Positions 23,621-56,579 of a stretch of DNA of 64,000 nucleotides are shown one piece after another. Source of the DNA: Thermoanaerobaculia bacterium (lineage in GTDB: Bacteria; Acidobacteriota; Thermoanaerobaculia; Multivoradales; J023); assembly GCA_030431255.1 (NCBI GenBank), contig JAUIJL010000008.1, positions 248,001 to 312,000 on the forward strand. The letters are read 5' to 3'. A program made the position numbers and the translations under genes. The notes under the pieces are model-generated. The model was given only the letters and a program-made list of their open reading frames with translations, was not told the origin of the DNA and did no database searches. Position 1 is the stretch's first letter. Every line of letters begins with the position of its first letter.

Positions 23621-26600
23621 TTAAGGCACCGAAATCTCCAAGAAATCGATCACCAAACCTGGGAAGCCGCCCCCGGTCTGTTCGATCTCGAGCAAATGGG
23701 AACCGGCCCCGGGAGTGATGTCCGCTTGGAAGATATGGAACGGCAGGCTGAAGCTGCCCGCGGCCTCCCTGGGCGGCACGGCGACATTGAGCAAGGTCTG
23801 CCCGCCGAGCCTGACGACCATTTGCGGCGTGGGATATCCCGCGCGTCCGTTGACGTGGAAGGTCAGGCGATAGGTGACTCCCGCCTGGAATCCGGACACG
23901 GTTTGGGAGATGGTGGCGTCCTTGAGGAAGGCGGCGACCTGCCCGTCGGGTCCGATGCCGTTGTTGTAGTAGGGCCATCCGTCGTCGGTGTTGCGTCCGG
24001 CCTTGGCGGGATCACTGACCTGCCAAACCGCAATGGGATTGCCTTGATCGACCCTGCCGGAGTATCCGTGAATGGTGGTGCCGTTGGCTTCGAAGCTGGG
24101 ATTTTGGATCACCGGTATTGGTGGGGTTTCCTCGATCTCCACAAAGTCGATGACCAACCCGGGTTGACCACCGGCGGTTTGCTCGATCTCGAGCAAATGG
24201 GAACCGGCCCCTGGAGTGATGTCCGCTTGGAAGATATGGAACGGCAGGCTGAAGCTGCCCGCGGCCTCCCTGGGCGGCACGGCGACATTGAGCAAGGTCT
24301 GCCCGCCGAGCCGGGCGACCATTTGCGGCGTGGGGTATCCCGCGCGTCCGTTGACGTGGAAGGTCAGTCGGTAGGAGGTCCCCGCCTGGAATCCGGACAC
24401 GGTCTGAGAGATGGTGGCGTCCTTGAGGAAGGCGGCGACCTGCCCGTCGGGTCCGATGCCGTTGTTGTAGTAGGGCCATCCGTCGTCGGTGTTGCGTCCG
24501 GCCTTGGCGGGATCGCTGACCTGCCAAACCGCAATGGGATTGCCTTGATCGACTCTGCCGGAGAACCCGTGGATGGCGGTGCCGTTGGCTTCGAAGCTGG
24601 GATTTTGGATGACCGGCAAGGGCGGAGCCGGTGGGGTTTCCTCGATCTCCACAAAGTCGATGACCAACCCGGGTTGAGCACCGGCAGTTTGCTCGATCTC
24701 GAGCAAATGGGAACCGGCCCCTGGAGTGATGTCCGCTTGGAAGATGTGGAACGGCAGGTTGAAGCTGCCCGCGGCCTCCCTGGGCGGCACGGCAACATTG
24801 AGCAAGGTCTGCCCGCCGAGCCTGACGACCATTTGCGGCGTGGGATAGCCGGCCCGCCCGTTGACGTGGAAGGTCAGTCGGTAGGAGGTTCCCGCCTGGA
24901 ATCCGGACACGGTTTGGGAGATGGTGGCGTCCTTGAGGAAGGCGGCGACCTGTCCGTCGGGTCCGATGCCGTTGTTGTAGTAGGGCCATCCGTCGTCGGT
25001 GTTGCGTCCGGCCTTGGCGGGATCACTGACCTGCCAAACGGCGATGGGATTGCCTTGATCGACTCTGCCGGAGAATCCGTAGATGGCGGTGCCGTTGGCT
25101 TCGAAGCTGGGATTTTGGATCACCGGCCCGGACGGCGCGGTGACTTGGACATAGCCCGCACGCTCGCGGATATCGGAGCCGCACTCGCCGATCACCTCGA
25201 GCTTGGGGGAATAAGTGCCGGAGGTAGTGAAAGTGTGTTGAGCCTGGGTCAGATTGCCGGCCACGTCGATCACACCATCGCCGTCGAAGTCCCATCGCCG
25301 TTCCGTGATATCTCCGCTGCTCAAATCCGTGAAAGCAACTTGCAGCGGCGCCTCGCCGGTGATCGGCTCAGCAGAGAAGTCGGCGCTCGGAGTGCCGATC
25401 GCAACATGGATCTCATGGGTTTCGACGTCACTATCGGACGGACCGACCACCGTCAGGGTCGCGTTGTAGGTGCCGGGCGCTGTGTAGGTGTGCTGAAGCG
25501 TCGGACCCGGATTGCTGTAGTCGGTGATGCCGTCCCCGTCTACGTCCCAGGATCGAGTGACGATGTTACCGATACTGGAATCGGTGAAGGTCACCTGCAA
25601 TGGAGCGCAACCCCGGGCGGGTGATGCGGAGAATCGAGCGACCTGCTCGAGCCGATAGATGGAGACGCGACCATCGCCGCTTTCGAGATGGGGATAACCC
25701 GGGGCTCCGATGGCGATCAGGTTGCCGTCGATCGCCACGGCGCTACCGAACCGCTGATCGGCAATGGCGCCGCCGCTCAAGCTGAGAGCCTCCTGCCAGT
25801 CTCCGGTCGGGCTTCGATCGAACAAAAAGGCGGCTCCGGCGTCGGATTGGCCGCCGCTCGAGCTGCCGGGTGCGCCGATCACCGCGAGATGCCCGTCGAT
25901 CGCCACGGCGGCTCCGAAACGGTCGCCCAAGGCCGTGCTCGCCGAGTCAGTGATTTCCTCCAATTGCCATGTGCCGCCGTCGAGATGGAAGAAATGGGCT
26001 CCGCCAGTCTGAGCTGTGTCGTCACCGGGCGCACCGACGACCACGCGCGCTGCCGTGCCCGCTGCGCCCCCTGCGCCGATGCCGTCGGCGAAGGTGGCGG
26101 TGTTGCCGAAAGTGCGCCCGGCTTCCGTCCAGGTCCCTCCGTTTCGCCCGTAGACCCGCCAGGATCCACCGCCCCGCTCACCGACGATCAACGTGTCGCC
26201 ATCGAGCTCGATCGAGGATCCGAAGCGGCCGTCAGGGTCATCACCTTCGAGGCGCACGGTCGGTATCCAACTGCCGCCGCTCAGCTCGAAAAGCTGCACG
26301 GCACCGAATTCGTTGCCCGGCGCACCGATCGCCAGGGTTGCGCCGTCGAGGGTGACGGAGCTGCCGAAGAACGCGAAACCTTGCTCGTGATTGCCCGCGT
26401 CGAGGCGAGCTACTTGACTCCAAACGCCGTTGTCGAGCTCGAAGACATAGGCAGCGCCCCGGAACAATTTGCCGTTCTGCGCGTCACTTTCGGCCGGTGC
26501 ACCGACCAGCAAACGATCGCCGTCGAGGGCGAGGGACCGTCCGAAGAAATCCTCGTTGTCGCCGTCTCCAGCCGTCAGCTCGGCCGCCAGGTTCCATTGA

Positions 26601-26860
26601 CCGTTGAGGTTGTCGAAGATGTAGACCGAGCCGCTGTGCAGCCGCTCCAAATCCGGCCGGCTGTGCCAAGGCGCGGCTACGGCCAGACGGCTACCGTCCA
26701 ATGACAGGGCCGATCCGAAGCCTGAGAAAGGGGTGGCTGCGGGCGAGGTCAAGGTCGCTTCCGGCGTGATGGTTGCGAACCCGGTGCCCGTAAGGATCAA
26801 CATCGACCAGACGACTAGAAGTCCGGCGATCGAGGATGGATGAGTTGCAAGAAAGCGCAT
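23621..26860 (-). CDS. Secreted FG-GAP/PKD protein with three near-identical ligand-binding-like modules
   Basis: 1079 residues from ATG 26860 (GGAG at 7 nt); signal segment IAGLLVVWSMLILTGTGFA. Residues 35-400 are FG-GAP units (FFGRSLALDGDRLLVGAP, RFGSAVAIDGNLIAIGAP). Two PKD domains follow (CAPLQVTFTDSS ... WDVDGDGITDY and EAPLQVAFTDLS ... WDFDGDGVIDV). Then come three modules of about 160 residues, starting VIQNPSFEANGT and ending GLVIDFVEIEE, differing by only a few residues. They resemble galactose-binding-like/DUF642 or HpiC1-type lectin modules (NPSFE start, SQTVSGF, YRLTFHVNGRAGYP). The gene follows the putative glycoside hydrolase by 83 bp, consistent with a shared role in polysaccharide binding. 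Confidence 0.82.
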   Translation of the reverse strand: MRFLATHPSSIAGLLVVWSMLILTGTGFATITPEATLTSPAATPFSGFGSALSLDGSRLAVAAPWHSRPDLERLHSGSVYIFDNLNGQWNLAAELTAGDGDNEDFFGRSLALDGDRLLVGAPAESDAQNGKLFRGAAYVFELDNGVWSQVARLDAGNHEQGFAFFGSSVTLDGATLAIGAPGNEFGAVQLFELSGGSWIPTVRLEGDDPDGRFGSSIELDGDTLIVGERGGGSWRVYGRNGGTWTEAGRTFGNTATFADGIGAGGAAGTAARVVVGAPGDDTAQTGGAHFFHLDGGTWQLEEITDSASTALGDRFGAAVAIDGHLAVIGAPGSSSGGQSDAGAAFLFDRSPTGDWQEALSLSGGAIADQRFGSAVAIDGNLIAIGAPGYPHLESGDGRVSIYRLEQVARFSASPARGCAPLQVTFTDSSIGNIVTRSWDVDGDGITDYSNPGPTLQHTYTAPGTYNATLTVVGPSDSDVETHEIHVAIGTPSADFSAEPITGEAPLQVAFTDLSSGDITERRWDFDGDGVIDVAGNLTQAQHTFTTSGTYSPKLEVIGECGSDIRERAGYVQVTAPSGPVIQNPSFEANGTAIYGFSGRVDQGNPIAVWQVSDPAKAGRNTDDGWPYYNNGIGPDGQVAAFLKDATISQTVSGFQAGTSYRLTFHVNGRAGYPTPQMVVRLGGQTLLNVAVPPREAAGSFNLPFHIFQADITPGAGSHLLEIEQTAGAQPGLVIDFVEIEETPPAPPLPVIQNPSFEANGTAIHGFSGRVDQGNPIAVWQVSDPAKAGRNTDDGWPYYNNGIGPDGQVAAFLKDATISQTVSGFQAGTSYRLTFHVNGRAGYPTPQMVARLGGQTLLNVAVPPREAAGSFSLPFHIFQADITPGAGSHLLEIEQTAGGQPGLVIDFVEIEETPPIPVIQNPSFEANGTTIHGYSGRVDQGNPIAVWQVSDPAKAGRNTDDGWPYYNNGIGPDGQVAAFLKDATISQTVSGFQAGVTYRLTFHVNGRAGYPTPQMVVRLGGQTLLNVAVPPREAAGSFSLPFHIFQADITPGAGSHLLEIEQTGGGFPGLVIDFLEISVP
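23630..25123 (-). repeat. Three direct repeats of about 480 bp within the FG-GAP/PKD gene
   Basis: Copies at about 24643-25123, 24131-24612 and 23630-24110, nearly identical at the DNA level including silent positions, separated by short linkers encoding EETPPAPPLP-like sequence. This indicates recent duplication or gene conversion, and these copies are prone to recombination and to assembly collapse. Confidence 0.9.
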
Positions 26861-26943
26861 GCTGCGGCTCCATGAAGAAATAGCTGAAGGAGAAAGGTGT
26901 CGCGGATATCGGTGGGAGATGGAGACGAAAAGCGTTGGACGGC

Positions 26944-29568
26944 TCATTGCGCGGGCACCCAACGCACGGCTCCGAGGGTCACTTGCACCGGCGGCGCGGG
27001 CAAGTTCGCTTTCGCCGGGTCGATTCGCAAGCCGGTGATGGTTTCGCCATCCCATGCGGAGTGGTTGCCGACGGGAATCGACAGGGTTTGCCAACCACCG
27101 GTGATGCCGGCGTCAACCTCGACTTTTCGACTGCCGTAGTAGGCCACGTCCTGCTCTCTTTGGAATAGCACAGCGAGGCGGGTGGTGCCGCTGGTGGGTA
27201 GAGTGAAGCGGACGTCCACTTCCAAGGTGTCGCCGGCGGAGCCTGACAACGCGAGTCGTGGGCTGTGGAGAAAGCCTGCTCGTGCCGTCAGATCCAGCTC
27301 TAATCCCTCGGTCGTGATGGTCGCCTCCCTGGCCCCACGAATCGTGCGCCAACCTTGCAATCCCTGACTGAAATCGACGTTGAGGGCGCTCGCGGCCGCC
27401 CGTCGTGAGGGCGCTAGGGGAATTGCTTGCCCTTCCAACATGACCAAAGGCCGGTTGCCTTCGAGGGCAGCCTCCAGACGTCTACGCCAATCGCCGTTTT
27501 TCCAAACCCATTGGGTCGGTTTATCGACACCGAAGTGAGTCGCGCCCCGAGGGTCGACGTACCTCACACCGCGGCCCTGGTCTTGCAAGAAGTCGATGCG
27601 ATGGCTGGTTCCCGGAGCGAAGGCGGAATAGGCCAAGACCGTATTGCCGGCCGGGGCGTCCCAAGCGGCCCAGCCGCCGGCGGGGAGGGTCAGAGCTTGG
27701 CCGGCGGCGGAGATCGCGAAGCTCGAGCTGCCGCGATTGACGACGATCGTCAAGCCGTTGGCATAGGTGACGCGGATGCGGTCGAATTCCGGGGATTGAT
27801 CTTTGGGTGTCCAAGGATCCTGAGGTAGTCGTCCAGTGTTGGTCTTCATCACGAATCCGTGATCCTCCACCAAGGATTCGAGGGTCGACCAGGTTCCGGG
27901 AGCTTGGCCGGAAGTCTCGTATTCGATCGTGGTCACCGGTTGCAGAGCGAAATACTGCTGCAAAGGGGCCACTATCAACACCTCGCTCAAATAGTGAGCC
28001 CAGGGAGCCTCTTCCAATTGATTTTCTAAATAGAGATAACCGCCGTTACCGAAGAGAATTTGGGTGGCGCGATAATCGTCCAGTAGAGCCTGATCTCGCC
28101 AACCATTGCGGTTGTATTCGGAAGCCTGCCAACGCTCGGAGATGTCCGTGAAACGATAGTTTTGGCCCATGCCGTGGAAGACACTCAATCCGTGAAGACG
28201 ACGAAGCTTGTACTCCGGAGTCATTCGTCGACCGCGGCCGTTGTGCATGTCGAATTGACCGGTAGCGACCCACGGACCGAGCAACACCTCGTTGCTGACG
28301 GCTTCTCCGGTCACCGGTCCACCGTGGATCTGCTCGAGGTAGTCGGCCATGGTCCGCTCCAACTGCACGACCCATTCGGTGGACAAGCCGTTTGCAACCG
28401 CCGCATCGTAGTCCCGATGAGAAGACGGATAGCCGGTGCTCAGGCTGTCGGTAAAGCTGCCACTGGAGCCGAGGTGAGCTTTGATCTCGGGCTCTTGCCG
28501 CTGGTAGATCGGCGGTAGCTCGTTGAGCTTGGAAAAGGGACCAACGCTTCCGTCGGCATTGAGGGTGTTGTGAACCAAGCCGTCCAGATAGCTCGGACCC
28601 TCGGTGCTGACTTGGCTGTAATAGGTTCGAAACGTCATCCAGCCTGCCGCATCACCGACGTCCGCCAATGAGCGCATGCTCGAAAGACTGCCGAAGCCGG
28701 TGTGGTTGGGTGGGTAGGATGGGTTGTGATTCAACCAGATGGAGTCCGGAGTGTAGGCATCATGGCCTCCCGCACCCCACGCCGCCCAGATGGTAAAAAA
28801 CTGGGTGTCGCGACCGGCGATACGTTGCAGGGTTTGGAGGAAGTGGGTCAGGTCGGCGGCCGAATCGTGGGACCAGCTGTCGATCAGCACCGTGTTCACC
28901 AGCTCCTCGGCCCACTGGCTCTTGCGGGAAGCCGGGAACGTCGGAACCGCTTGCCAGAGCTCGTCGTCGACCCGGATTTCGATTTCTTCGTGAAGAGGCT
29001 GTCTCGCCCCCGCGGTGTTGGCGTGGTATCGCATCTGCGGTGCCAAAAAGGGATTGCCGCTGCCGCTGTTGGCGTTGTAGACGGCCTGCTGGAACGACCA
29101 TAGGGTTCCTTTGCCGACTTCCGGTCGCCAGAATGCCCACGCCCACAAATCCTGTTGGGTCAAATAGGTTCCCTTTTGGTTGAAGTCGTGTCCTTTGTGC
29201 ATGCCGTATTGGCTCAGGTCGACCCGGCGCCAGATGCCGCTGGTCACGGCTCTGGGTCCCCGAATCAGATTCCAAGCGCTGTTCCCAGATGTCGAATCGA
29301 TGGTCACGATCAACGACTCACCGTCAATCTGGAGAGCGAGCCGATATTGTCCGCCGGTGGTGTTGTAGAGGTATTTGCCACCGCTGGTTCCGGCGTAGGA
29401 TCCTGGGTTGGTCCCGGGATAAGGCATTTGGACCGTCAGTGAGCGACCGGCAGCCGTAGCAACGATGGAACGGGTGGACGGGTTGTAGGTACCCCATGTG
29501 CCGGCCGCGGCCGGCAGCGCTTCGAATAATGTGACGAGGACAAGGAGCAGCAGAGGAATGTGTCGCAT
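26944..29568 (-). CDS. Secreted protein, putative glycoside hydrolase with C-terminal carbohydrate-binding-like domain
   Basis: 874 residues from ATG 29568 (MRHIPLLLLVLVTLFEALPAAA, signal peptide). Residues 25-150 are beta-rich (TWGTYNPSTRSIVATAAGRS). The middle has many Trp and Asp/Glu motifs suggestive of a TIM barrel (FFTIWAAWGAGGHDAYTPDS, GYPSSHRDYDAAV, RYHANTAGARQ). A beta-rich domain follows and then a C-terminal jelly-roll (LNVDFSQGLQGWRTIRGAR ... LEVDVRF ... VQVTLGAVRWVP) typical of galactose-binding-like modules. I could not assign a GH family; this call rests on architecture and on the downstream binding-module genes. It heads a probable leftward operon with the next two genes. Confidence 0.6.
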   Translation of the reverse strand: MRHIPLLLLVLVTLFEALPAAAGTWGTYNPSTRSIVATAAGRSLTVQMPYPGTNPGSYAGTSGGKYLYNTTGGQYRLALQIDGESLIVTIDSTSGNSAWNLIRGPRAVTSGIWRRVDLSQYGMHKGHDFNQKGTYLTQQDLWAWAFWRPEVGKGTLWSFQQAVYNANSGSGNPFLAPQMRYHANTAGARQPLHEEIEIRVDDELWQAVPTFPASRKSQWAEELVNTVLIDSWSHDSAADLTHFLQTLQRIAGRDTQFFTIWAAWGAGGHDAYTPDSIWLNHNPSYPPNHTGFGSLSSMRSLADVGDAAGWMTFRTYYSQVSTEGPSYLDGLVHNTLNADGSVGPFSKLNELPPIYQRQEPEIKAHLGSSGSFTDSLSTGYPSSHRDYDAAVANGLSTEWVVQLERTMADYLEQIHGGPVTGEAVSNEVLLGPWVATGQFDMHNGRGRRMTPEYKLRRLHGLSVFHGMGQNYRFTDISERWQASEYNRNGWRDQALLDDYRATQILFGNGGYLYLENQLEEAPWAHYLSEVLIVAPLQQYFALQPVTTIEYETSGQAPGTWSTLESLVEDHGFVMKTNTGRLPQDPWTPKDQSPEFDRIRVTYANGLTIVVNRGSSSFAISAAGQALTLPAGGWAAWDAPAGNTVLAYSAFAPGTSHRIDFLQDQGRGVRYVDPRGATHFGVDKPTQWVWKNGDWRRRLEAALEGNRPLVMLEGQAIPLAPSRRAAASALNVDFSQGLQGWRTIRGAREATITTEGLELDLTARAGFLHSPRLALSGSAGDTLEVDVRFTLPTSGTTRLAVLFQREQDVAYYGSRKVEVDAGITGGWQTLSIPVGNHSAWDGETITGLRIDPAKANLPAPPVQVTLGAVRWVPAQ

Positions 29569-30390: not shown

Positions 30391-31413
30391 TCAGGGAGTC
30401 AGGCGCAGCTCGAAGATGAAGCGGGGCGTGTCCGGGTCCGAGGGATCAAAGAGCTCGAGTCGGTAGTCACCGGGTTTCAAGGGCTCCGTGGGCAGCAAGA
30501 GGAAGACTTCGGCCGTGCCGGTGCGTCGGGCTCGGCCGCTCCAAACGGCGGTTTCGGATCCTTCGAAGAAGAGCTCCAATCGGTATTCGAGCTTCGAGCC
30601 GACCCCTACGTCCAAGAAGACGGCCACATATCGGGCGTCGCCGAGCTTCAGGGCTCGAGGCGGCTCAGAGGTCTCACCCTGCCTGGTGGCAGCTCGCGGG
30701 CTGAGCCATTCGAACGGCAGATTCGCCAAGGGCTCGACTCGCGGCCGGGAAATTCGGGCCGCCGCGTGATCGTCTAGCTGCGAGCCGCGCCCCAGCCACC
30801 CCGCGGCCAGACCGACGGCCAGTAGAGCCGAAGCGGCGAGGGCTAGGGTTGCGTTGCGGGGCCACCCCAGAGAGCCGTTGGACGGCGCCTGTGCTCGATC
30901 CTTCGCGGCACCGGGATCGGAATCGGCGAGGTCCAAGAGTCGACGCCGAGCGGCTGTCAGCTCTGCCACCAAATCGCGGTGCTCGAGCTCGGCTCGGGTG
31001 TCTTGATCGAGCCCGTTGGCCGGTTTCACGACGTCCTGGTCCGCGAGTTGGTGGAGCACCGCCTGGAGATCGGCCTCGCTCAGCTTGCCGACGATTTTTA
31101 GCGGTGGTAGTCGATCGGCGTCGATCCAAAAGGCGAGCTCACAGCGGGCCGTCAACGGACCGAGCTCGCTGCCGACTGCCACGTCTGCGGCGGTGACCAG
31201 GGGGTCGAGGTCCGCGGGCACCCACCGCCAAGCTGGAGTCGGTAGATCTCTCCGCTCCACCACCAGCCAGAAGTCGGGACGGCTCGACGTCGGCTCGACG
31301 AGCGCCAAAATCTCTCCGGGCGCGGCAATCTCGGAGCGGGCCGGACCCGGGGATCGGCTCGAAGCTCGGCCGGTTCGAAGGCGGAGGGCGTTTTTGACGT
31401 CGGAATTCTTCAT
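30391..31413 (-). CDS. Single-pass membrane protein, candidate anti-sigma-like partner in the CHAT operon
   Basis: 340 residues. ATG 31413 overlaps the upstream stop (ATGA), with GGAG at 5 nt. The N-terminal 220 residues are soluble (GEILALVEPTSSRPDFWLV, WRWVPADLDPLVTAADVAVG, LGPLTARCELAFWI) with a charged helical part (about 165-205). One membrane helix follows (NATLALAASALLAVGLAAGWLG, about 215-236). A beta-rich outer domain of about 100 residues comes last (YRLELFFEG ... LKPGDYRLELFDPSD ... RFIFELRLTP). No zinc-finger HxxxCxxC is present, so a standard ZAS anti-sigma domain is not supported. The topology and position right after a sigma-like gene suggest an anti-sigma role; this is inference. 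Confidence 0.65.
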   Translation of the reverse strand: MKNSDVKNALRLRTGRASSRSPGPARSEIAAPGEILALVEPTSSRPDFWLVVERRDLPTPAWRWVPADLDPLVTAADVAVGSELGPLTARCELAFWIDADRLPPLKIVGKLSEADLQAVLHQLADQDVVKPANGLDQDTRAELEHRDLVAELTAARRRLLDLADSDPGAAKDRAQAPSNGSLGWPRNATLALAASALLAVGLAAGWLGRGSQLDDHAAARISRPRVEPLANLPFEWLSPRAATRQGETSEPPRALKLGDARYVAVFLDVGVGSKLEYRLELFFEGSETAVWSGRARRTGTAEVFLLLPTEPLKPGDYRLELFDPSDPDTPRFIFELRLTP

Positions 31414-32516
31414 GGCAGCTCCACCGACTGGCAGTCGCGAAGCAAACGCCCGAGCGTGCTGTACAGGCTTTGCAAGCTGTCTCGCGGGATGTCTAGGAGA
31501 TTGGAGACCCGTCGTCTGGAAGCCGGCCGGGTCGGATCGCCCTCGGTGACCTGGTGGCGCACGAGCGTCCACAGTCGGCGCAGGCGATCATGGGTTTTGG
31601 GGGCTTCGGAAAGCTCTTCGATGCGCGAGCTGACGCAGTGGGTGAGGCTTTCGAAAGCCTGCCGTTGCTCGAGCCGGGTGTCCGGTTCCACTTGCCGGAC
31701 CAAGCCGCCGAGCTCGTCACCCTGGTTCGCCGGCCAAGAGTCCTCGGAGTATGCCCAAATCGCGTTCCACCGTCGCCGGGCATCCTCCTTGAGCGGCTCC
31801 AAGAGCTGAGCGAAGGTGAACGCCTTGAGCTCGAGATCGCGCAGGGAATCCACGTGTTGGGCGAGTCGACGGACCAAACGGTCGCGCTTCTTGCCCCGGG
31901 CGTTGACCATTTCAGGCAACAGGTCGTTATTCCACGCGGCGACCCGTGGATCCAGGGAGACCGGATCGTGCTCGGCGGTTTGTTTCGGGTCCGCTCGTGC
32001 ATCAAAGCCGAGCACCGTGTCGTTGCGGATCCGCTCGTCGCCGGCCAGGATGTGGAGCCGGCCGTCGTCACAGCAGCATCGAATCGCCGTTTGGAGGGTG
32101 GTGAAGACCCGGAAACCCAGCGGGTCGTGTTTCTTTTGGAGGTCGTAGAGATAGTTGTGAATCGAGCGGAACACCAATCCGTCGACGTTGTCCTTGGCTG
32201 TGAGGTGCGCCCGCAGACCGCCGAGTCGGCTGAGGAAGACGAATTTGTAGCAGTCGGCCACCAGCTCGTCGAGGGCTTCGGGGTCTTGCCAGCTGGCGGG
32301 GCCGAAGATGCCGAGGCATCGAGGTTTCATCCACCAAAGGGAGCGCCGCTTCAGCTCCAACACCAAGACACCGCGAAGCCGCGCCCAAAGCAGCTCGAAA
32401 GTGTCGGGATCCGGGGCCTCACCGGGCTCCAGGCCTCGGATGTAGCCCGTGAAGGTGAAGCCGGTGGCGGTGAGGTCTGTGACGGTGGAAGTCGGCTCAC
32501 CCGAATCGACCTTCAT
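31410..32516 (-). CDS. Divergent sigma-70-like regulator in the CHAT operon
   Basis: 368 residues; ATG 32516 overlaps the stop of the CHAT gene (ATGA). Residues about 80-130 (LDELVADCYKFVFLSRLGGL, then GLVFRSIHNYLYDLQKKH) match the pattern of sigma region 2 in ECF-type factors (helix, then WLxxIxxNxxxDxxRR). The C-terminal RRRVSNLLDIPRDSLQSLY (about 332-350) is a possible helix-turn-helix in the place of region 4. The middle (150-320) is longer than in ordinary ECF factors and holds several His/Trp/Cys residues (AIRCCCDDGRLHI). It could instead be another DNA-binding protein. Translationally coupled to both neighbours. Confidence 0.55.
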   Translation of the reverse strand: MKVDSGEPTSTVTDLTATGFTFTGYIRGLEPGEAPDPDTFELLWARLRGVLVLELKRRSLWWMKPRCLGIFGPASWQDPEALDELVADCYKFVFLSRLGGLRAHLTAKDNVDGLVFRSIHNYLYDLQKKHDPLGFRVFTTLQTAIRCCCDDGRLHILAGDERIRNDTVLGFDARADPKQTAEHDPVSLDPRVAAWNNDLLPEMVNARGKKRDRLVRRLAQHVDSLRDLELKAFTFAQLLEPLKEDARRRWNAIWAYSEDSWPANQGDELGGLVRQVEPDTRLEQRQAFESLTHCVSSRIEELSEAPKTHDRLRRLWTLVRHQVTEGDPTRPASRRRVSNLLDIPRDSLQSLYSTLGRLLRDCQSVELP

Positions 32517-35500
32517 CGGCGATCTCCGTGCAGCTGGAAGGCCGCCCAGTAATAAGGAGCCGCCGCCTTGGCGTTGGATCCGTCGGCGCGGCCGATCAAC
32601 GACAGCTGGGCCGAGCGCAGGGCGTCGTCCTTGGCCATGCCCCGGCGCAGCTCGCGATAGAAGTGCACCATCAGCTCGGCGGTCGTCGGGTCCTCGACGT
32701 TCCACAGGCCGGCCACTACCGACGCGGCGCCGGCGTATTGGAAGGCTCGGGTGAGGCCGATCAGCCCCTCGCCGTCCACGTACCCGCCGGCGGCGGTCCT
32801 GCACGCGGAGAGCACCACGAGATCCGCGTCGACCCGCACTCGCTCGAAGATCTCCCAAACCTGGAGCAGACCGTTCTCCGGTCCACCCTGACCGAGGCTG
32901 AGCACGATTGCCGAGTCGAGAGGAAACCGCTCGTTCAACAGGCCGTGGGTGGCGAAGTGGACGTAGCTCACCCCGGGGCTCAACGACTTGGCCCGTTGCT
33001 CGGTCGCATCGGCCCCCAGCCACAATCGCCCGCGGTCGGCGAAGAGCTTCGCGATCTCTTGGGCTTCACGTCGGCTGCCGGGCAAGGGTCGGAGCTCGAA
33101 GTAGCGAGACATGGAACGGACCTGTGGCTCCAGCGATGCCGATTCGGGAGCCGCCGTGACGGCATGTTCGGAAGCGAAAAGCGGATCCCCGAAAGCGACC
33201 AGCTCGCCTCCAGGACCCGTCTTAGGTCGCCGATTGCGAAGTTGGGTGTAGAGCGTGGCCGAAACGATCGTATGGACGGGCATTTGCTCGATCCAATATC
33301 GCCGATCCGCCTGATTCGCCTGCTCGGCCGGGGATTCCGCGACCAGGGCGGAGAACGGCAGTTGGAAGAGGGGGCCGTCCGGCACCACCAAGGCTCGGCG
33401 ACCCTGATCGAGGATCCCTTGGACCGGCGCCAGTAGCCTCCGATACAGCTCGGCGCCGGCGGCGAGCAGCGGCTCGAAGGACCTGGACGAGGGATTTCGT
33501 CGTTCCTCGATCAAGGTCGAGAATCCCCGCACCAAATCCCTCAGCTCGACCTCGCCGAGATCGAGCTCGAAGACGCTCAGAGCCTTCTCGGCGTCGACGA
33601 CAAAAAGGTGGCTCGACTCGGCGCCGACGCTGAAGGACAGCAGCACGGTTCCCGGGTCGAGAGCCCCTCGGATCTGGTCGAGGCTCGCCGGCCGGGGGTC
33701 CTCGAGCTCCGCCAAACGCGGCGACGCTTCACGGATACGCCCTCGCAAAGCCCGACGCTCGCTGTGCAGCTGCTCGAGCTTTGCGCGCAGCTCCCGGCGC
33801 TGGTCGGAGCTCGTCTCCGGCCGGGTCAGCTGCTCCAGGATTTGGTCGTGGCGCGCGGCCAAGCGGCGACGCTGCCGCTCCAGCTCCTCGGGCACGTCGG
33901 CGAAGACCAAATCCCGCTCGGCGAGCATCGCGAGCAGGCTGCGGGCGCGTCGGCCTTCGAGCACCTGGAACGCCTCCGCGGGGCGCCCGAGCTCGAGCAA
34001 GACCTCGATGGCGGACCGGTAGACGTAACCGTAACGGGCCCTGAAGCTGCCCTGAAGCTCCCGCGCGCCGCCCAATTTGCCGATTTGCGCTTCGAGGATC
34101 TCGATCGCCCGGCTCAGATGAGCCCAAGCCTCCTGCGGCTGGTTCTTCCGGCGTGCGATGCGGGCCAGTCGCTCGAAGCATTCCACTTGGTGGTAACTCT
34201 CCAATCCTTGCTGCTCGAATAGCTCCAGGGCGCTCGACAAATATCGTGTTGCCGCCGGCAGCTCGCCGGTCCGGAGCTTCACCTCACCCAAGGTGCTGTA
34301 GGCCACCGCCGTGGCGTGGCTTTCAGGCGCCAAGGGCTCCAAGATCCGCACGGCCTCTTGTAAGTGCCGCTCCGCGGTGGCGAGATCACCTTGCTCCAGG
34401 GCCAGGGTACCGAGGTTGATCCTCGACGAGGTGCTCTCCAACTCGCCCGACTCCGAAGCTAGTTGGATGGCCAGGGCGCGACCCAGGAGCTCGGCGGCCT
34501 CCGCCGGTCGGCGCCGGCGCTGAGCCAAGACGCCGAGATCGTTCCAGCCGGACGCGACCGGCAAGCCGCCCGGCGCTCGCTCCTGCTTGAGCTCGAGGGC
34601 GCGTTTCAGGTGCTTCTCCGCGGCGGCAAATTCTCCCCTCTCCATCAGCAGCGCGCCCAGACCGGCTTCAAGGGTCGACCTCTTCTCTCCCTCGGGCGCC
34701 ACCCGCAGCTGAAGCTCAAGAGCTTCGCGATACCAAGTCTCGGCGCGGGCGAAGTCGCCTCGTCGGCGGGCGATCGAGCCGAGGTTCATACGCAAAAGAG
34801 CCATCCCAAGGCTTTCCGGAGAGGTCTGCTCGTGGATCTCCAAGGACTGCAGGTAAAGGCTTTCGGCCTGAGCGAGATCTCCGTAGAGAGCCGTCAGATT
34901 GCCGAGATTGATCAGGGTGCCGGCGACCGCTGGGCTGTTCGGGGCTAAGCGCTGTTGGATGTCCAAGGCACGGTGATAGTGATCCAGGGCTCGCTTCAGG
35001 TCGCCACGGTTTTTGGCCACCACCCCTAGGCTCACCAGGTTGTTGGCCACGTGCATGCTGTCGTCGGGGGCGTGGTGGCGTCGGATCTTCAGGGCGCGTT
35101 GCAGGTAGCTTTCCGCGGCCTCGTAGTCTCCGCGGCTGAAACTCAAGGCGCCGAGGTTGTTCAGGCAGGCCGCGGTATTCAACGACAGCGGATCTAAGCG
35201 CTCGAAGATGTCCAAAGCCTTCTCATGGAAGCGCAGCGCGGCGGAGGGATCTCCGTGAGATGCCGGCACGATCCCCAGATTCATCCAGCCCACGGCCATT
35301 TCGACCGAGTCCGGGGCGATCTCTTGCAGAAGCTCCACCGCCCGCTGGTAGGCCGCGCGAGCGTCGTCGTAAAGCCCACGGACGACGGCTAAGCGTCCCT
35401 GAGCGGTCCAAATCCGGACTCTCATCAAGCTGCGCGGTGCCAGCTGATCGACCCGTTGCGAGGCGGAGCCCAGCCACTTCCCGGTGGCCTCCACGTCTCC

Positions 35501-36304
35501 GCGGGTTTCGGCCACCTCGGCCAGGTAGCTCCACAGGTCCGCTTGGCCCAGCCCTCCGCTCCACTCGGATTTCCAGGTCTCGAGGGCTTTGCGCAGCGCG
35601 TTTTCGCTTTCTTCCAGCCGGCTGAGCGGCAGGGTGGCAAGCCCCCATGCTCGCCAAACCTCGGCCCGCTCTCGGGGGGTCTCGGCAAGCTCGATCGCTT
35701 CGCGCATGAACGGCTCGGCGATCTCCTGCTCTCCTGCCCGGCTCAGCCGCTCCCCCGCGCGCAACAACAGCCAGCAGCGGTCGGATCGGGACGGGGTCGA
35801 GCCCGCCGTCCGACGCCAGATTTCAGCGGCGGCCCGCGCATCACCTTCGCTGAGCCGATCCACCCCTGAGGCATAGGCCGCCGAAATGCCCACGGGTAGC
35901 TCCGGCCGGGCCCAGGCCTTCCATTTTCCCGCTCCGACCACCACATCTAACGATTCCCCCAACGCGCCAGGCCCGGACCGGCGCTCGCCCAGCAACCGAA
36001 CCGAGCCCCGGGGCGCATGTTGCATTTGAAGCCAACGCCAATCGAAGGGCGATGCCAGGGTACCGGAGGAGCCGTCCGGCCTTTGCCAAGAGTCCAAGCG
36101 ATCCCCGACCTCAATACCGGCCTTGCTCAGGGCGGAGCCGGCCGGCAGCTCCTCCACGACCACACGGGCAGCGATCGAGGTTGCGCCGGTCAGAATCCAC
36201 AGAAAGGTCGTTCCTAAGACGGCTCTACATCCGCACCGAAGCGCCGTGGACGAGAAAGGAATCTCTTCGTGGGTGGTCGCAACCGATCTAAAGAATCCAG
36301 CCAA
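32513..36304 (-). CDS. PDZ-TPR-CHAT caspase-like protease, membrane-anchored or exported
   Basis: 1263 residues. TTG 36304 follows AAAGG at 6 nt; no ATG suits the N-terminus. A hydrophobic segment (VLGTTFLWILTGATSIAA, about 29-46) is followed by a PDZ-like domain (VVVEELPAGSALSKAGIEVGD, residues about 48-120). Then come about a dozen TPR units of the kinesin-light-chain type (150-760), a charged coiled coil (800-860) and a CHAT domain. The CHAT dyad is intact: His about 1120 in YVHFATHG and Cys about 1168 in VVLSACRTAAG. CHAT proteases are caspase-like and include Csx29 of type III-E CRISPR systems; no CRISPR parts are here. It leads a three-gene unit with ATGA overlaps, so its substrate is probably a product of that unit. 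Confidence 0.88.
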   Translation of the reverse strand: MAGFFRSVATTHEEIPFSSTALRCGCRAVLGTTFLWILTGATSIAARVVVEELPAGSALSKAGIEVGDRLDSWQRPDGSSGTLASPFDWRWLQMQHAPRGSVRLLGERRSGPGALGESLDVVVGAGKWKAWARPELPVGISAAYASGVDRLSEGDARAAAEIWRRTAGSTPSRSDRCWLLLRAGERLSRAGEQEIAEPFMREAIELAETPRERAEVWRAWGLATLPLSRLEESENALRKALETWKSEWSGGLGQADLWSYLAEVAETRGDVEATGKWLGSASQRVDQLAPRSLMRVRIWTAQGRLAVVRGLYDDARAAYQRAVELLQEIAPDSVEMAVGWMNLGIVPASHGDPSAALRFHEKALDIFERLDPLSLNTAACLNNLGALSFSRGDYEAAESYLQRALKIRRHHAPDDSMHVANNLVSLGVVAKNRGDLKRALDHYHRALDIQQRLAPNSPAVAGTLINLGNLTALYGDLAQAESLYLQSLEIHEQTSPESLGMALLRMNLGSIARRRGDFARAETWYREALELQLRVAPEGEKRSTLEAGLGALLMERGEFAAAEKHLKRALELKQERAPGGLPVASGWNDLGVLAQRRRRPAEAAELLGRALAIQLASESGELESTSSRINLGTLALEQGDLATAERHLQEAVRILEPLAPESHATAVAYSTLGEVKLRTGELPAATRYLSSALELFEQQGLESYHQVECFERLARIARRKNQPQEAWAHLSRAIEILEAQIGKLGGARELQGSFRARYGYVYRSAIEVLLELGRPAEAFQVLEGRRARSLLAMLAERDLVFADVPEELERQRRRLAARHDQILEQLTRPETSSDQRRELRAKLEQLHSERRALRGRIREASPRLAELEDPRPASLDQIRGALDPGTVLLSFSVGAESSHLFVVDAEKALSVFELDLGEVELRDLVRGFSTLIEERRNPSSRSFEPLLAAGAELYRRLLAPVQGILDQGRRALVVPDGPLFQLPFSALVAESPAEQANQADRRYWIEQMPVHTIVSATLYTQLRNRRPKTGPGGELVAFGDPLFASEHAVTAAPESASLEPQVRSMSRYFELRPLPGSRREAQEIAKLFADRGRLWLGADATEQRAKSLSPGVSYVHFATHGLLNERFPLDSAIVLSLGQGGPENGLLQVWEIFERVRVDADLVVLSACRTAAGGYVDGEGLIGLTRAFQYAGAASVVAGLWNVEDPTTAELMVHFYRELRRGMAKDDALRSAQLSLIGRADGSNAKAAAPYYWAAFQLHGDRR

Positions 36305-41434: not shown

Positions 41435-43348
41435 TCAGCCTTCGGGGTCGCGCAGGCCGTGACGGATCAATCGACGTCGCAGGGCGTCCCGCGAGATGCC
41501 CAGGATGCGCGCCGCCTCGGTCAACACACCGTCGGTTCGGGCCATGGCTTCTTCGATTGCCATCTTTTCTAAGCCGGCGAGCTCCAAGGTAGGAAGGTTC
41601 AAGGAGGTAGAAGGGTCCGACGACGGGCCAGCGCTCTCCTTCTGCTTAGCGTCCGGGGACGGCGGCCGCCGGCGCTCGCGAATCTCGGGAGAGAGACAAA
41701 CCGAGTCGATCGCCGATCCCGGATCCGCCACGTAAGCCAAGCCGCGCACAGTGTGCTCCAGCTCCCGCACGTTGCCCGGCCAATGGTAGTCGGAAAGGGC
41801 CTGCATGGCTTTGACGGTGACCCCTTGGATCGGTTTGCCGATCTCCCGGCTGAAGCGCCGTAGGAAGAGCTCCACCAGCAACGGGATGTCTTCGCGACGC
41901 TCCGCCAGGGTCGGAAGACGCAACACATATCCCGCCAAGCGATAGTAGAGATCTCGCCGGAATCCGCCGTCGTCCATGGCCCGCGACAGCTCGTTGTGGG
42001 TCGCCGACACCACCCGGACGTCCACCGGCGTCGCCCGTCCGCCCACGGGTTGGACCTCTTTCTCTTGCAGCACCCTCAGCAGCTTGGCCTGGAGCTGGGC
42101 GGGCATATCGCCGATTTCGTCCAGAAAGAGCGTGCCGCCGTCGGCTTGTTGAATACGACCGACCCGCGCGGACACGCCCGTGGCGACGCCCTTGGCAATG
42201 CCGAAAAGCTCCGCCTCCAGCAGCTCCGACGGAATGGCCGCGCAGTTGATGGCCACCAGCGGACCGTCGGCGCGGCTGGAAGACAAATGCAGGGTGCGAG
42301 CCAGGAGCTCCTTGCCCACGCCCGTGTCGCCGATGATCAGCACGGGCACGTCTCCCTGGGTGAGGTAGCTCATTTGGGAGTAGACGGCGGTGATGGCCGG
42401 GCTGTCACCCGGCAGATAGCCCTGGGGAAAAACCAGCTCCCTGTGGTTCCCCCGATGGCCGGAGTCGACGTAGGACGGGCCGGAGGACGCCCGCTCGGGA
42501 CGGGCCCGACAAAGGGCCAGCCACTGAGCCACCGCCGCCGTCAGCCGGTCGGCCCAAGGGGCGTCCCGGGCGCCGGCCGTCCACAGCCTGAGCTGCTCCC
42601 CGGCTTCCGTGGACGACCAAGTCACGAGGGTGTCCGGTTGCTCGACACCCCGCTCCTGGCCTGAGTCGGACGGCAAGTCGAGCCGCTCCAGACGGCTCAG
42701 CTGCTCCGGGTCGATGTCTCCGAGGCAGGCGAGCATCACGGAATTCGAGGATCGACGCGCGACCAACGCGGCGGCCCGCGCACCCAACGCTTCCAGCAGG
42801 TGGCGTAAGGCTCCCGCGGTGTCCGGCGGCGAAGGGACGAGCAGGGCGGCCATGAGCCGGTCCAGCACCGCCACCAGGGCTTCGGCGGACGGCGGGCCGG
42901 AGGACGGCACCGCTTTGGCTTGGGTGGTACGGGAAGGCACGGCGGAGGGCCCGGACGACGACAAGGCCACGGCCAAGTCGGCGTCTGCGGGGTCCAAACG
43001 GTCCACCTTGAGAGCGACGCCGCAAATGCCGATGACATCGCCCAGGCGTAGGACCGCGGATTGCACGGCGGCTCCGTTGATCGAGGTGCCGTTCTTGCTC
43101 CCGAGGTCCTTGAGCACCAGGTTCGAGCCCTGGCTGATGATCTCGGCATGGCGCCGAGAGATGCCCGGTGCCTGGATCGAGACGTCGTTGTCGGCCCGGC
43201 TGCCGATGCCGTTGATGCCCGCGTAGAGCGGGAAGGAGCGGCGTCGCTGATCGATCAACGAGATCAAACGATAGGGCGACACGGGCCGTCGACCCACGGC
43301 GGGATCGGGGTCTTGGGAGCGGCTCGGGTGAATATTCGATTCAGTCAT
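41435..43348 (-). CDS. FHA-domain AAA+ activator of the sigma54-activator family with degenerate GAFTGA loop
   Basis: 637 residues; ATG 43348 overlaps the kinase stop by 8 nt. FHA domain (about 30-110: GIGSRADNDVSIQAPGISRRHAEI, LGSKNGTSINGA), which binds phosphothreonine peptides. A GAF-like middle (150-290) follows, then AAA+ with Walker A GDTGVGKE, Walker [12 protein letters not shown] and the arginine-finger region FRRDLYYRL. The C-terminus has a Fis-type helix-turn-helix (LTEAARILGISRDALRRRL). The sigma54-contact loop, normally GAFTGA, reads GVATGV. That makes canonical sigma54 remodelling doubtful. It is coupled to the upstream Ser/Thr kinase, which may phosphorylate its partner or ligand. 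Confidence 0.9.
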   Translation of the reverse strand: MTESNIHPSRSQDPDPAVGRRPVSPYRLISLIDQRRRSFPLYAGINGIGSRADNDVSIQAPGISRRHAEIISQGSNLVLKDLGSKNGTSINGAAVQSAVLRLGDVIGICGVALKVDRLDPADADLAVALSSSGPSAVPSRTTQAKAVPSSGPPSAEALVAVLDRLMAALLVPSPPDTAGALRHLLEALGARAAALVARRSSNSVMLACLGDIDPEQLSRLERLDLPSDSGQERGVEQPDTLVTWSSTEAGEQLRLWTAGARDAPWADRLTAAVAQWLALCRARPERASSGPSYVDSGHRGNHRELVFPQGYLPGDSPAITAVYSQMSYLTQGDVPVLIIGDTGVGKELLARTLHLSSSRADGPLVAINCAAIPSELLEAELFGIAKGVATGVSARVGRIQQADGGTLFLDEIGDMPAQLQAKLLRVLQEKEVQPVGGRATPVDVRVVSATHNELSRAMDDGGFRRDLYYRLAGYVLRLPTLAERREDIPLLVELFLRRFSREIGKPIQGVTVKAMQALSDYHWPGNVRELEHTVRGLAYVADPGSAIDSVCLSPEIRERRRPPSPDAKQKESAGPSSDPSTSLNLPTLELAGLEKMAIEEAMARTDGVLTEAARILGISRDALRRRLIRHGLRDPEG

Positions 43349-55568: not shown

Positions 55569-56579
55569 ATGTCTTTGGAAGAAACCCAGTCTTTGGAAAA
55601 AACTCAGGCGCTAGACAAGACTCAGGCACCGACGAACATCCCGCGGCCGAGCGATCAGGTGCAGCCCACGGTCGAGGACCAGGCGGCGGGCTGGATCGAT
55701 ATCTGGGTGCTCCTACATGCGGAGACTTGCTCCCTGGAGGCCTCCGTGCCGGAGCTGCCCATCCCGGCGGGGCGGCCGATCCGATGGCGTTTCCGGCAGG
55801 TGCTCGCCGACGGATCCTTCGGTCCGTTGCCCAAGGGATGGACCCCCATGGTCGGGTTCACCAAGTCGTCGAAGAATCAGGCGGATTCTCCCTTCGGCCC
55901 GTTCGGCGGTTTGCTGCACGTGGCCGCGGATGGGAAAGGCACGGATGGGAAAGATGGAGTGTCGGTCGACATCGTCGGCGAATGGTCGCCGGGAGCGCTC
56001 GCCGACGATGCGCCCCGGCAATTTCATGGTTTCGCCATGATCCACCGCGGCATGGGCATGGAGAGCGACCGGGCCTTTTCGTGTTTAACGACTCCCCGCC
56101 TGACCCTCACCCTGGGGCCACCGGACGGCCTCCGATACCGGGCTTCACCGACCCCCGAGCAATTCCTGGTGGAGCTGTCGGTGAAGAGAGATCCCAAGGA
56201 CCCCCACCGCTTGAGCATCTCCCCCGAGACTCCGATCAAGGCGTTCACCAACACCATCGTTCGGTGGCAATTCGCCCCAGAGATCCGCAGCGGTTTTCCG
56301 TTGATCCTCTTCTACCATTCCGTGGAGCTGCCCAAAGGAGCTGCGGTCGTGTTGGGGGACAGAAACGAGCACTTCGAGCCCTGCCGAAAGGCACGCTTCA
56401 GCCCCAAAGGTGTGGAGATGTGGGATTTCAAGACCGAGCCGCGGAGCTGTTTTTACGAGGGGGCCATGTTGGGCCTGCGGGCTCTATCCCTGGAGCTGCT
56501 CTCCACCGGAGATCCCCAGCTGGACAATCAGGGCATTCCGTTCCCGCTGGCATCGGGCGACGGTGAGGAGGCCTGCTGA
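55569..56579 (+). CDS. Protein of unknown function with TQ-repeat N-terminus
   Basis: 336 residues; ATG 55569 with AAAGGA upstream. The N-terminus repeats a Thr-Gln motif (LEETQS, LEKTQA, LDKTQAPT), a pattern suited to phosphothreonine-FHA recognition, then is Pro-rich. Residues 40-330 have no known domain but contain many Pro/Gly-rich beta segments (PIPAGRPIRWRFRQVLADGS, PTPEQFLVELSVKRDPKDP). No signal peptide. It is divergent from the FHA activator, with a candidate sigma54 promoter, and overlaps the convergent kinase gene by 52 bp at the 3' end. I infer it may be a target or partner of the kinase/FHA pair. Confidence 0.7.
   Translation: MSLEETQSLEKTQALDKTQAPTNIPRPSDQVQPTVEDQAAGWIDIWVLLHAETCSLEASVPELPIPAGRPIRWRFRQVLADGSFGPLPKGWTPMVGFTKSSKNQADSPFGPFGGLLHVAADGKGTDGKDGVSVDIVGEWSPGALADDAPRQFHGFAMIHRGMGMESDRAFSCLTTPRLTLTLGPPDGLRYRASPTPEQFLVELSVKRDPKDPHRLSISPETPIKAFTNTIVRWQFAPEIRSGFPLILFYHSVELPKGAAVVLGDRNEHFEPCRKARFSPKGVEMWDFKTEPRSCFYEGAMLGLRALSLELLSTGDPQLDNQGIPFPLASGDGEEAC

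Follow-up and report, generated by a model that had tools for sequence, protein, structure and literature searches.

A CHAT protease gene overlapping a sigma-like gene and an anti-sigma-like membrane protein gene: a candidate transmembrane transcription switch in Acidobacteriota

Three neighboring genes on the minus strand of a Thermoanaerobaculia bacterium genome raise the question of what a caspase-like CHAT protease has to do with transcription. The genes lie between positions 30,391 and 36,304 of the 64,000-nucleotide stretch analyzed here (the window; positions 248,001 to 312,000 of the forward strand of contig JAUIJL010000008.1, assembly GCA_030431255.1) and encode, in this order, a PDZ-TPR-CHAT protease, a sigma-like protein, and a bitopic membrane protein that resembles anti-sigma proteins. 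An earlier interpretation made from the letters alone (the sequence-only reading) took them for a stress or defense cascade. We put at about even the chance that these genes encode a transcription switch that works across the membrane: the exported CHAT protein would cut the anti-sigma in the membrane, and the sigma-like factor would be set free. The cascade as first described, with cleavage as its predicted key step, is plausible: the sigma-70 relationship, the anti-sigma-like partner, and the conservation, the clustering of CHAT partners, and the parallel ECF layout described below argue for it, and the defense role found no backing.

The three genes and the sigma-like protein

The protease gene (32513..36304, minus strand; 1263 residues) starts with TTG behind an AAGG-type ribosome site and matches Pfam CHAT and TPR_12. 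The sigma-like gene (31410..32516, minus strand; 368 residues) starts inside an ATGA overlap with the CHAT gene, and a second ATGA overlap joins it to the gene for the membrane protein (30391..31413, minus strand; 340 residues), which we call anti-sigma-like from the comparison of its family profile with ten membrane anti-sigma proteins. Coordinates, strand, and both overlaps agree with the sequence-only reading, and each of the three has the GC content by codon position that real genes typically show (third position highest, second position lowest).

Searches of Pfam, NCBIfam, PHROG, and PADLOC up to E 1 return nothing for the sigma-like protein. Compared by hhalign with a diverse set of 16 extracytoplasmic function (ECF) sigma factors, however, its family profile (31 rows, some of them one gene trimmed twice; 26 kept by hhalign) gives a probability of 70.7 and an E value of 3.8e-5, which, like the other profile-profile E values for this protein, holds for a single comparison. 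None of 100 column-shuffled ECF profiles does as well (best shuffle 23.1 versus 42.15), and the reversed profile gives E 0.31. The alignment has two parts, which are in the correct order: residues 15 to 140 (32097..32474, minus strand) match ECF region 2 with a probability of 81.8 and E 1.1e-5, and residues 320 to 368 (31413..31559, minus strand), a C-terminal helix-turn-helix (HTH), match ECF region 4 with E 3.4e-4; in either case 0 of 40 shuffles is as good. Region 2, by which an ECF sigma factor is judged, is thus found by profile-profile comparison, and both segments named in the sequence-only reading are backed. The middle of the protein (~150 residues) aligns with the ECF profile no better than shuffles do, and the whole profile gives E 0.19 to 0.69 against anti-sigma, kinase, and CHAT profiles. 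When 306 CHAT-neighborhood proteins are ranked by their match to the sigma-like profile, 25 ECF proteins are shifted upward (ranks 1, 2, 7, 13, 19, and lower; p 1.5e-4), which, with the region 2 match, supports a sigma-70 relationship. Position 84 is acidic in 24 of 24 members and position 88 in 19 of 24, and these are probably region 2.2 positions.

Several results weigh against the assignment. The single matches in the 306-protein ranking are weak (the best has E 0.0018 and the second-best covers 17 columns), and many of the 25 ECF proteins rank low, the last at 260. Five TIGR02999-type ECF proteins taken alone give nothing with the sigma-like profile (E 0.11 and 0.12), and a PDB search with this profile returns 13 chains up to E 10, none of which is a sigma factor. 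Pfam finds no sigma domain in the window protein, Sigma70_r2 is not reached, and Sigma70_r4 matches 1 of 24 family members, weakly (E 0.012); since most C-terminal matches are to generic HTH families, region 4 is not separable here from other HTH types. Exact 5+5-base promoter dyads with a spacing of 13 to 19 were sought upstream of five operons, and none occurs in three or more of them.

Setting the profile matches and the acidic positions against the missing family and PDB matches, we call the protein a putative divergent sigma-70 relative rather than an ECF member. ECF sigma factors consist of regions 2 and 4 only, joined by a short linker, in ~200 residues; the sigma-like protein departs from this architecture in its length and in its conserved middle, where Trp195 and Arg247 are present in 24 of 24 members. 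The strong divergence, this middle without an ECF match, and C-terminal HTH matches that include GntR and HTH_11 types would also suit a sigma-derived regulator that binds DNA or RNA polymerase and has ceased to be a sigma subunit; its role would then be a different one, set by the insert and by the partner's GDL domain (described below). We consider such a regulator unlikely, given the region 2 match, the acidic residues kept at apparent region 2.2 positions, and the fact that the protein occupies the operon place where an ECF sigma factor otherwise stands.

The membrane partner and the spread of the pair

The sequence-only reading described the third product as a one-helix membrane protein, and hydropathy bears this out with a single transmembrane (TM) helix at residues 190 to 208 (30790..30846, minus strand; hydropathy 1.93). 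The N-terminal domain (30922..31338, minus strand) carries the pattern PGDLxxL...EWLVVE...VPADxxPxxGxxD, in which G8, D43, D52, and R65 are invariant across 24 loci (alignment A11). Pfam matches nothing of weight in any of 24 members, and PDB nothing useful, and we call it a new domain, GDL, a name given here. A MazF/PemK-like fold considered for GDL found no support in the PDB or Pfam searches. C-terminal to the helix is a presumably outer domain (30400..30726, minus strand; borders approximate) that zinc-finger anti-sigma proteins also have and that, by eye only, looks like a beta domain.

Compared with ten membrane anti-sigma proteins, which are membrane proteins encoded beside ECF genes, the family of the window protein gives a probability of 98.6 and E 1.4e-15, over the TM helix and the C-terminal, outer half only. 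The sigma-binding domain zf-HC2, which is common but not universal in anti-sigma proteins (9 of 16 in a set that includes the ten references), is absent from the membrane protein, and GDL stands in its place. The best family match for the window's membrane protein in Pfam, NCBIfam, PHROG, and PADLOC is a weak NCBIfam anti-sigma match (E 0.032). Homology to known anti-sigma proteins through the TM and outer half, together with a gene adjacent to the sigma-like gene, argues for an anti-sigma-like partner, as had been proposed.

A TM helix is found by hydropathy in 18 of 23 tested membrane partners. The other five (L038, L041, L059, L060, and L061) show none, which tells against a switch that must span the membrane; since TM-less partners exist, GDL and not the membrane anchor is the constant part. 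Lysine and arginine residues flanking the helix are in excess on its N-terminal side in 10 of the 18 TM proteins, which weakly backs an inside N terminus; they are equal in 3, and in 5 of the 18, the window protein among them, there are fewer on that side, which points the other way.

How widely is this pair of genes kept together? In the source genome the sigma-like gene has five copies, and all five have the membrane partner beside them; three are directly beside a CHAT gene, and the neighbor of the remaining two encodes a Ser/Thr kinase. In one copy of the kinase type (L022) the sigma-like and membrane proteins are fused in a single 898-residue frame. When 396 genomes of the phylum are searched with a profile of the five copies, four candidates being scored per genome, 6 of them (source included) have the gene, representing 5 of 210 genera. 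A scan of a named genome collection gave 17 sigma-like loci, 13 of which are labeled Acidobacteria, Acidobacteriota, Thermoanaerobaculia, or Thermoanaerobaculum; the others come from a metagenome-assembled genome labeled Deltaproteobacteria, with two loci, and, as distant relatives, from Thiomargarita, Candidatus Marithrix, and Zavarzinella formosa. Zavarzinella is a planctomycete, and Thiomargarita and Marithrix are large sulfur bacteria.

With duplicate loci merged (L036 = L054, L037 = L058, L040 = L050, L041 = L055, L042 = L053, and L043 = L051), the window's gene included, and a second copy in L048 added, there are 26 sigma-like genes. The GDL membrane partner is beside 25 of the 26, truncated by contig ends in L040, L042, and L046. 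The lone exception is one of the two L048 copies, in which only the partner's end is kept and which looks like a deletion remnant. Natural fusions of the two proteins in one frame occur at four loci (L022, L036, L039, and L040). Conservation of the trio in other genomes had been set beforehand as a test of the sequence-only reading, and such conservation was found.

The third gene is exchangeable. A CHAT gene lies within 3 kb of 12 sigma-like genes (the window, L019, L020, L036 to L039, L043, the second copy in L048, L052, L056, and L057; this count leaves out the L048 remnant, which has that CHAT gene at 2.9 kb), and a kinase gene lies within 3 kb of 5 (L021, L022, L036, L047, and L049). There is also a kinase at 4.5 kb in L038 and a kinase fragment in L041, and at L040, L042, L045, L046, and L059 a contig end is too near to judge the third gene. 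A kinase with TPRs can thus replace the CHAT protease, and the system is not a one-off; both points go beyond the sequence-only reading. Hydropathy places a TM helix after the kinase domain in 5 of 6 kinases of these loci (one of the six, L063, belongs to the ECF kind described below), and the TPRs of the kinases are therefore probably outside. At L044, L060, and L061 we found neither CHAT nor kinase with acidobacterial profiles that may miss distant forms, a result that does not favor a switch built around either enzyme.

The exchange of CHAT for kinase, the TPR part that is common to both and probably outside in both, and the loci that show neither enzyme would fit a different division of labor, in which the sigma-like and membrane proteins are the switch and the TPR-CHAT protein or TPR kinase acts mainly by binding, the protease cutting other envelope substrates. 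A pure scaffold would have no need of the His/Cys pair that is invariant in all ten aligned partner CHAT domains (see below), and we regard this alternative as improbable.

Some of these loci have further features. The Zavarzinella sigma-like gene (L060:9962-11488) is broken by transposase-like sequence, and its locus adjoins genes that by eye are type I restriction-like, as well as a gene for an AAA-domain protein of 1913 residues. Thiomargarita (L059:763-1164) and Zavarzinella (L060:9485-9958) each have, immediately upstream of the sigma-like gene, a gene for a small protein (133 and 157 residues); the two are alike by eye and have no Pfam family of weight. A CHAT start in a Thiomargarita fragment and a Lon-like protease in a 649-residue Zavarzinella neighbor, both suspected by eye, were given up when Pfam returned neither. 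Relatives of the Thiomargarita sigma-like protein were sought on plasmids (25 records), and those listed are chance matches with E 2 and above. At three loci the CHAT gene is separated from the sigma-like gene by small frames of 113 to 149 residues (L037:7881-8330, L037:9260-9694, L038:7775-8161, L038:8770-9207, and L056:9318-9659) with signal-like N termini by eye, some cysteine-rich, which may be substrates or regulon members. A TIGR02999-like ECF sigma gene is present in eight of the sigma-like loci (L021, L022, L036, L038, L041, L047, L048, and L049) and directly follows the membrane gene in L047 and L049.

The CHAT protease and the proposed switch

The PDZ-TPR-CHAT description with an intact His/Cys dyad holds for the first gene of the trio, its PDZ part by way of an alignment with partners. 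Pfam CHAT matches residues 949 to 1261 (32522..33460, minus strand) with E 3.9e-67, TPR_12 matches seven stretches with E 2.5e-63, and Pfam TPR families outline an array at ~residues 297 to 740 (34085..35416, minus strand). Ten partner CHAT domains were aligned, the window protein's among them, and all ten have His1120 (codon 32945..32947, minus strand) and Cys1168 (codon 32801..32803, minus strand), so that this protein has both the CHAT domain and the His/Cys pair of a CHAT protease. A profile of the ten domains matches the solved structures 8rot_B (E 4.8e-5) and Csx29 (7y9x_B; E 0.0041); when the CHAT domain was searched by itself against PDB sequences, no useful match came back. The PDZ-like domain (35921..36169, minus strand; ~residues 46 to 128) lies in an N-terminal region, ahead of the TPRs, that aligns with six partners (alignment A13). 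PDZ_6 matches 5 of the 7 aligned members (best E 7.7e-4), the window member not among them, and no PDZ family is among the best 25 of the 38 Pfam families for the window protein.

The claim that this protein is exported or anchored stands in part. Its hydrophobic N-terminal stretch, visible by eye, misses our threshold of 1.6 hydropathy over 19 residues, while 6 of 11 partner CHAT proteins (the window protein counted in the 11) have a segment between residues 10 and 120 that passes as a signal or anchor. In this tally the true starts of the frames are unsettled, and two that do not pass, L038 and L057, are cut at the 5' end. Taken together, these sequences suggest that the CHAT protein is probably exported.

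The CHAT partners of sigma-like genes cluster among CHAT proteins. On a tree of the 30 CHAT domains that pass E 1e-10 and 200 residues, which is not all 45 of the source genome and lacks partners L039 and L043, the ten labeled partners need three label changes compared with a shuffled mean of 8.6, and 0 of 500 shuffles are as low. Nine of the ten lie in one branch with support of 93/90 (short of the program's star), with L052 elsewhere, and the only other member of this branch is a CHAT fragment in L037, itself a partner locus. Near-copies such as L056 and L057 increase the clustering.

In the proposed switch, the sigma-like protein, with its region 2, its conserved insert of ~150 residues, and its region 4-like HTH, would be bound and held inactive in the cytoplasm by GDL. 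The membrane protein would span the inner membrane once and display its C-terminal domain outside, where the exported PDZ-TPR-CHAT protein would sense an envelope or extracellular cue through its PDZ and TPR parts and, with its caspase-like site, cut the membrane protein in its outer part. Cleavage, probably together with further host proteases, would then free the sigma-like factor to recognize promoters and transcribe a regulon. At the sister loci where a kinase, with TPRs that are probably outside, takes the place of CHAT, the message would be phosphorylation, so that the shared design would be a TPR sensor outside, a single-pass anti-sigma, and a sigma factor inside, with proteolysis or phosphorylation as the message.

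Somewhat more tentatively, and at a little under an even chance, we propose that the sigma-like proteins are a previously unrecognized sigma-70-relative family with its own anti-sigma domain, GDL, that reads out envelope caspase-like proteases or kinases, is found from Acidobacteriota to Zavarzinella, Thiomargarita, and Marithrix, and is repeated many times in parallel within a genome.

The same layout with ECF sigma factors, and comparison with known systems

The operon place of the sigma-like gene is filled elsewhere by ordinary ECF genes. In the source assembly (G000), which totals 10.19 Mb on 54 contigs, CHAT is matched 45 times at E 0.001, and 44 of these matches are above the Pfam cut-off. 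A custom ECF profile finds an ECF gene within 5 kb of 24 of the 45 CHAT entries, and both an ECF sigma gene and an anti-sigma relative lie within 5 kb of 17, including one weak case (L090) and two in which the pair is on the strand opposite CHAT (L062 and L078). Of 63 Pfam Sigma70_r2 matches in the source genome, 17 are within 5 kb of CHAT, compared with 2.9 expected (p 2.5e-9). The gene order is sigma, anti-sigma, CHAT in L072, L073, L074, and L082; CHAT, sigma, anti-sigma in L066; and CHAT, then sigma, anti-sigma, and kinase in L063.

A profile of these anti-sigma proteins has matches in 265 of the phylum's 297 genomes, in many through the zinc-finger part only. We examined 20 anti-sigma loci in 19 other genomes, drawn from the best matches outside the source genome with eight similarly ranked matches passed over. 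An adjacent ECF gene is present in 20 of 20 and a CHAT gene in 18 of 20, in a sample that leans towards CHAT because the profile was built from CHAT-linked proteins. The CHAT of L131 is a piece at a contig end and that of L130 is 4.5 kb away; L146 has a kinase, and at L132 the contig ends. The same layout thus recurs with ECF sigma and zinc-finger anti-sigma genes, both in the source genome and elsewhere. One ECF sigma factor in a set with anti-sigma and CHAT genes (L079:9356-10408) has an N-terminal extension of ~160 residues that is TIR-like by eye.

Sigma/anti-sigma pairs at 17 of 45 CHAT entries of one genome look like signaling families, and they speak, as does the probable export of the CHAT protein, against a defense or programmed-death module in which a phage- or damage-activated CHAT protease kills the cell and the sigma-like factor serves regulation. 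Caspase proteins, some with ECF sigma genes, do occur in conflict systems (PMC8195603), and the Zavarzinella relative lies among its restriction-like genes. Apart from TPR, PADLOC matches nothing in the trio below E 0.02, the neighborhoods not having been scanned for defense genes. The defense role in the sequence-only reading therefore goes without support, and we consider a module of this kind very improbable.

Among the known systems close to the transmembrane switch proposed here is Csx29/Csx30/CASP-sigma (Craspase, type III-E CRISPR), in which a TPR-CHAT protease, an inhibitor, and a sigma factor are encoded together. Cutting of the inhibitor Csx30 by Csx29 is experimentally known, and the authors liken it to DegS/RseA (PMC10028731). 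In that system, however, Cas7-11 and RNA form a complex with the protease, and CASP-sigma is much like an ordinary ECF factor (PMC10028731), whereas in the trio the protease has a PDZ-like domain and is probably exported, the putative inhibitor is a membrane protein carrying a new domain, and the sigma-like protein is divergent. Pfam and PADLOC gave no CRISPR family for the trio, and neither did Pfam for four neighbors in the window. The trio resembles DegS/RseA/RpoE in arrangement and differs from it in having a caspase-like CHAT protease with TPRs. DegS is a trypsin-like serine protease. The arrangement in common is an envelope protease, a membrane anti-sigma, and a sigma factor (PMC10028731).

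Four further comparisons can be made. ECF54 sigma genes lie near CHAT genes, and proteolytic control has been proposed for them, but as factors without an anti-sigma (PMC8999054); the trio has an anti-sigma-like protein, and its sigma-like protein is far from ECF. EACC2-caspase loci combine a caspase domain, an ECF sigma factor, and a further constant component, DUF1822 (PMC8195603); there is no EACC2 or DUF1822 match among the Pfam families listed for the trio. In EcfP/PknT control a kinase is encoded beside the sigma factor, as in the kinase version of our loci, but EcfP has neither an anti-sigma nor the acidic motif of region 2.2, and ECF43 factors, which need phosphorylation, also lack an acidic motif at region 2.2 (PMC8999054); the sigma-like loci have both acidic residues and an anti-sigma-like protein. 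In the two-gene EACC1 system the EACC1 domain is in a separate 5' membrane gene (PMC7159879), whereas the only EACC1 match in the trio is inside the PDZ region of the CHAT protein and below the cut-off (19.3 versus 23.6 bits). In the text consulted, sigma is mentioned once in PMC7159879, for sigma-54 regulators, and not at all in PMC10907252. We did not find the sigma-like family or GDL described among the papers listed for CHAT with sigma, anti-sigma, or extracytoplasmic function; prior notice of an ECF/anti-sigma/CHAT module is possible.

If the proposed switch is real, the inhibitor-cutting CHAT protease of one CRISPR type would be a special case of a wider chromosomal signaling design, in which exported TPR-CHAT proteins are wired to sigma factors through membrane anti-sigmas. 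Many as yet unassigned Acidobacteriota CHAT proteins would gain a testable job, with the neighboring membrane protein as the likely substrate, and a sigma-like family and an anti-sigma-like domain would be added that are both missing from the family libraries searched. The whole would amount to a bacterial cell-surface caspase-to-transcription pathway with many parallel copies per genome.

Elsewhere in the window are two further kinase genes, one at 43341-46190 with kinase and TPR matches in Pfam and one at 56528-59320 matched by a custom kinase profile. The product of 23621-27094 has a C-terminal part with three near-identical repeats of ~140 to 150 residues each.

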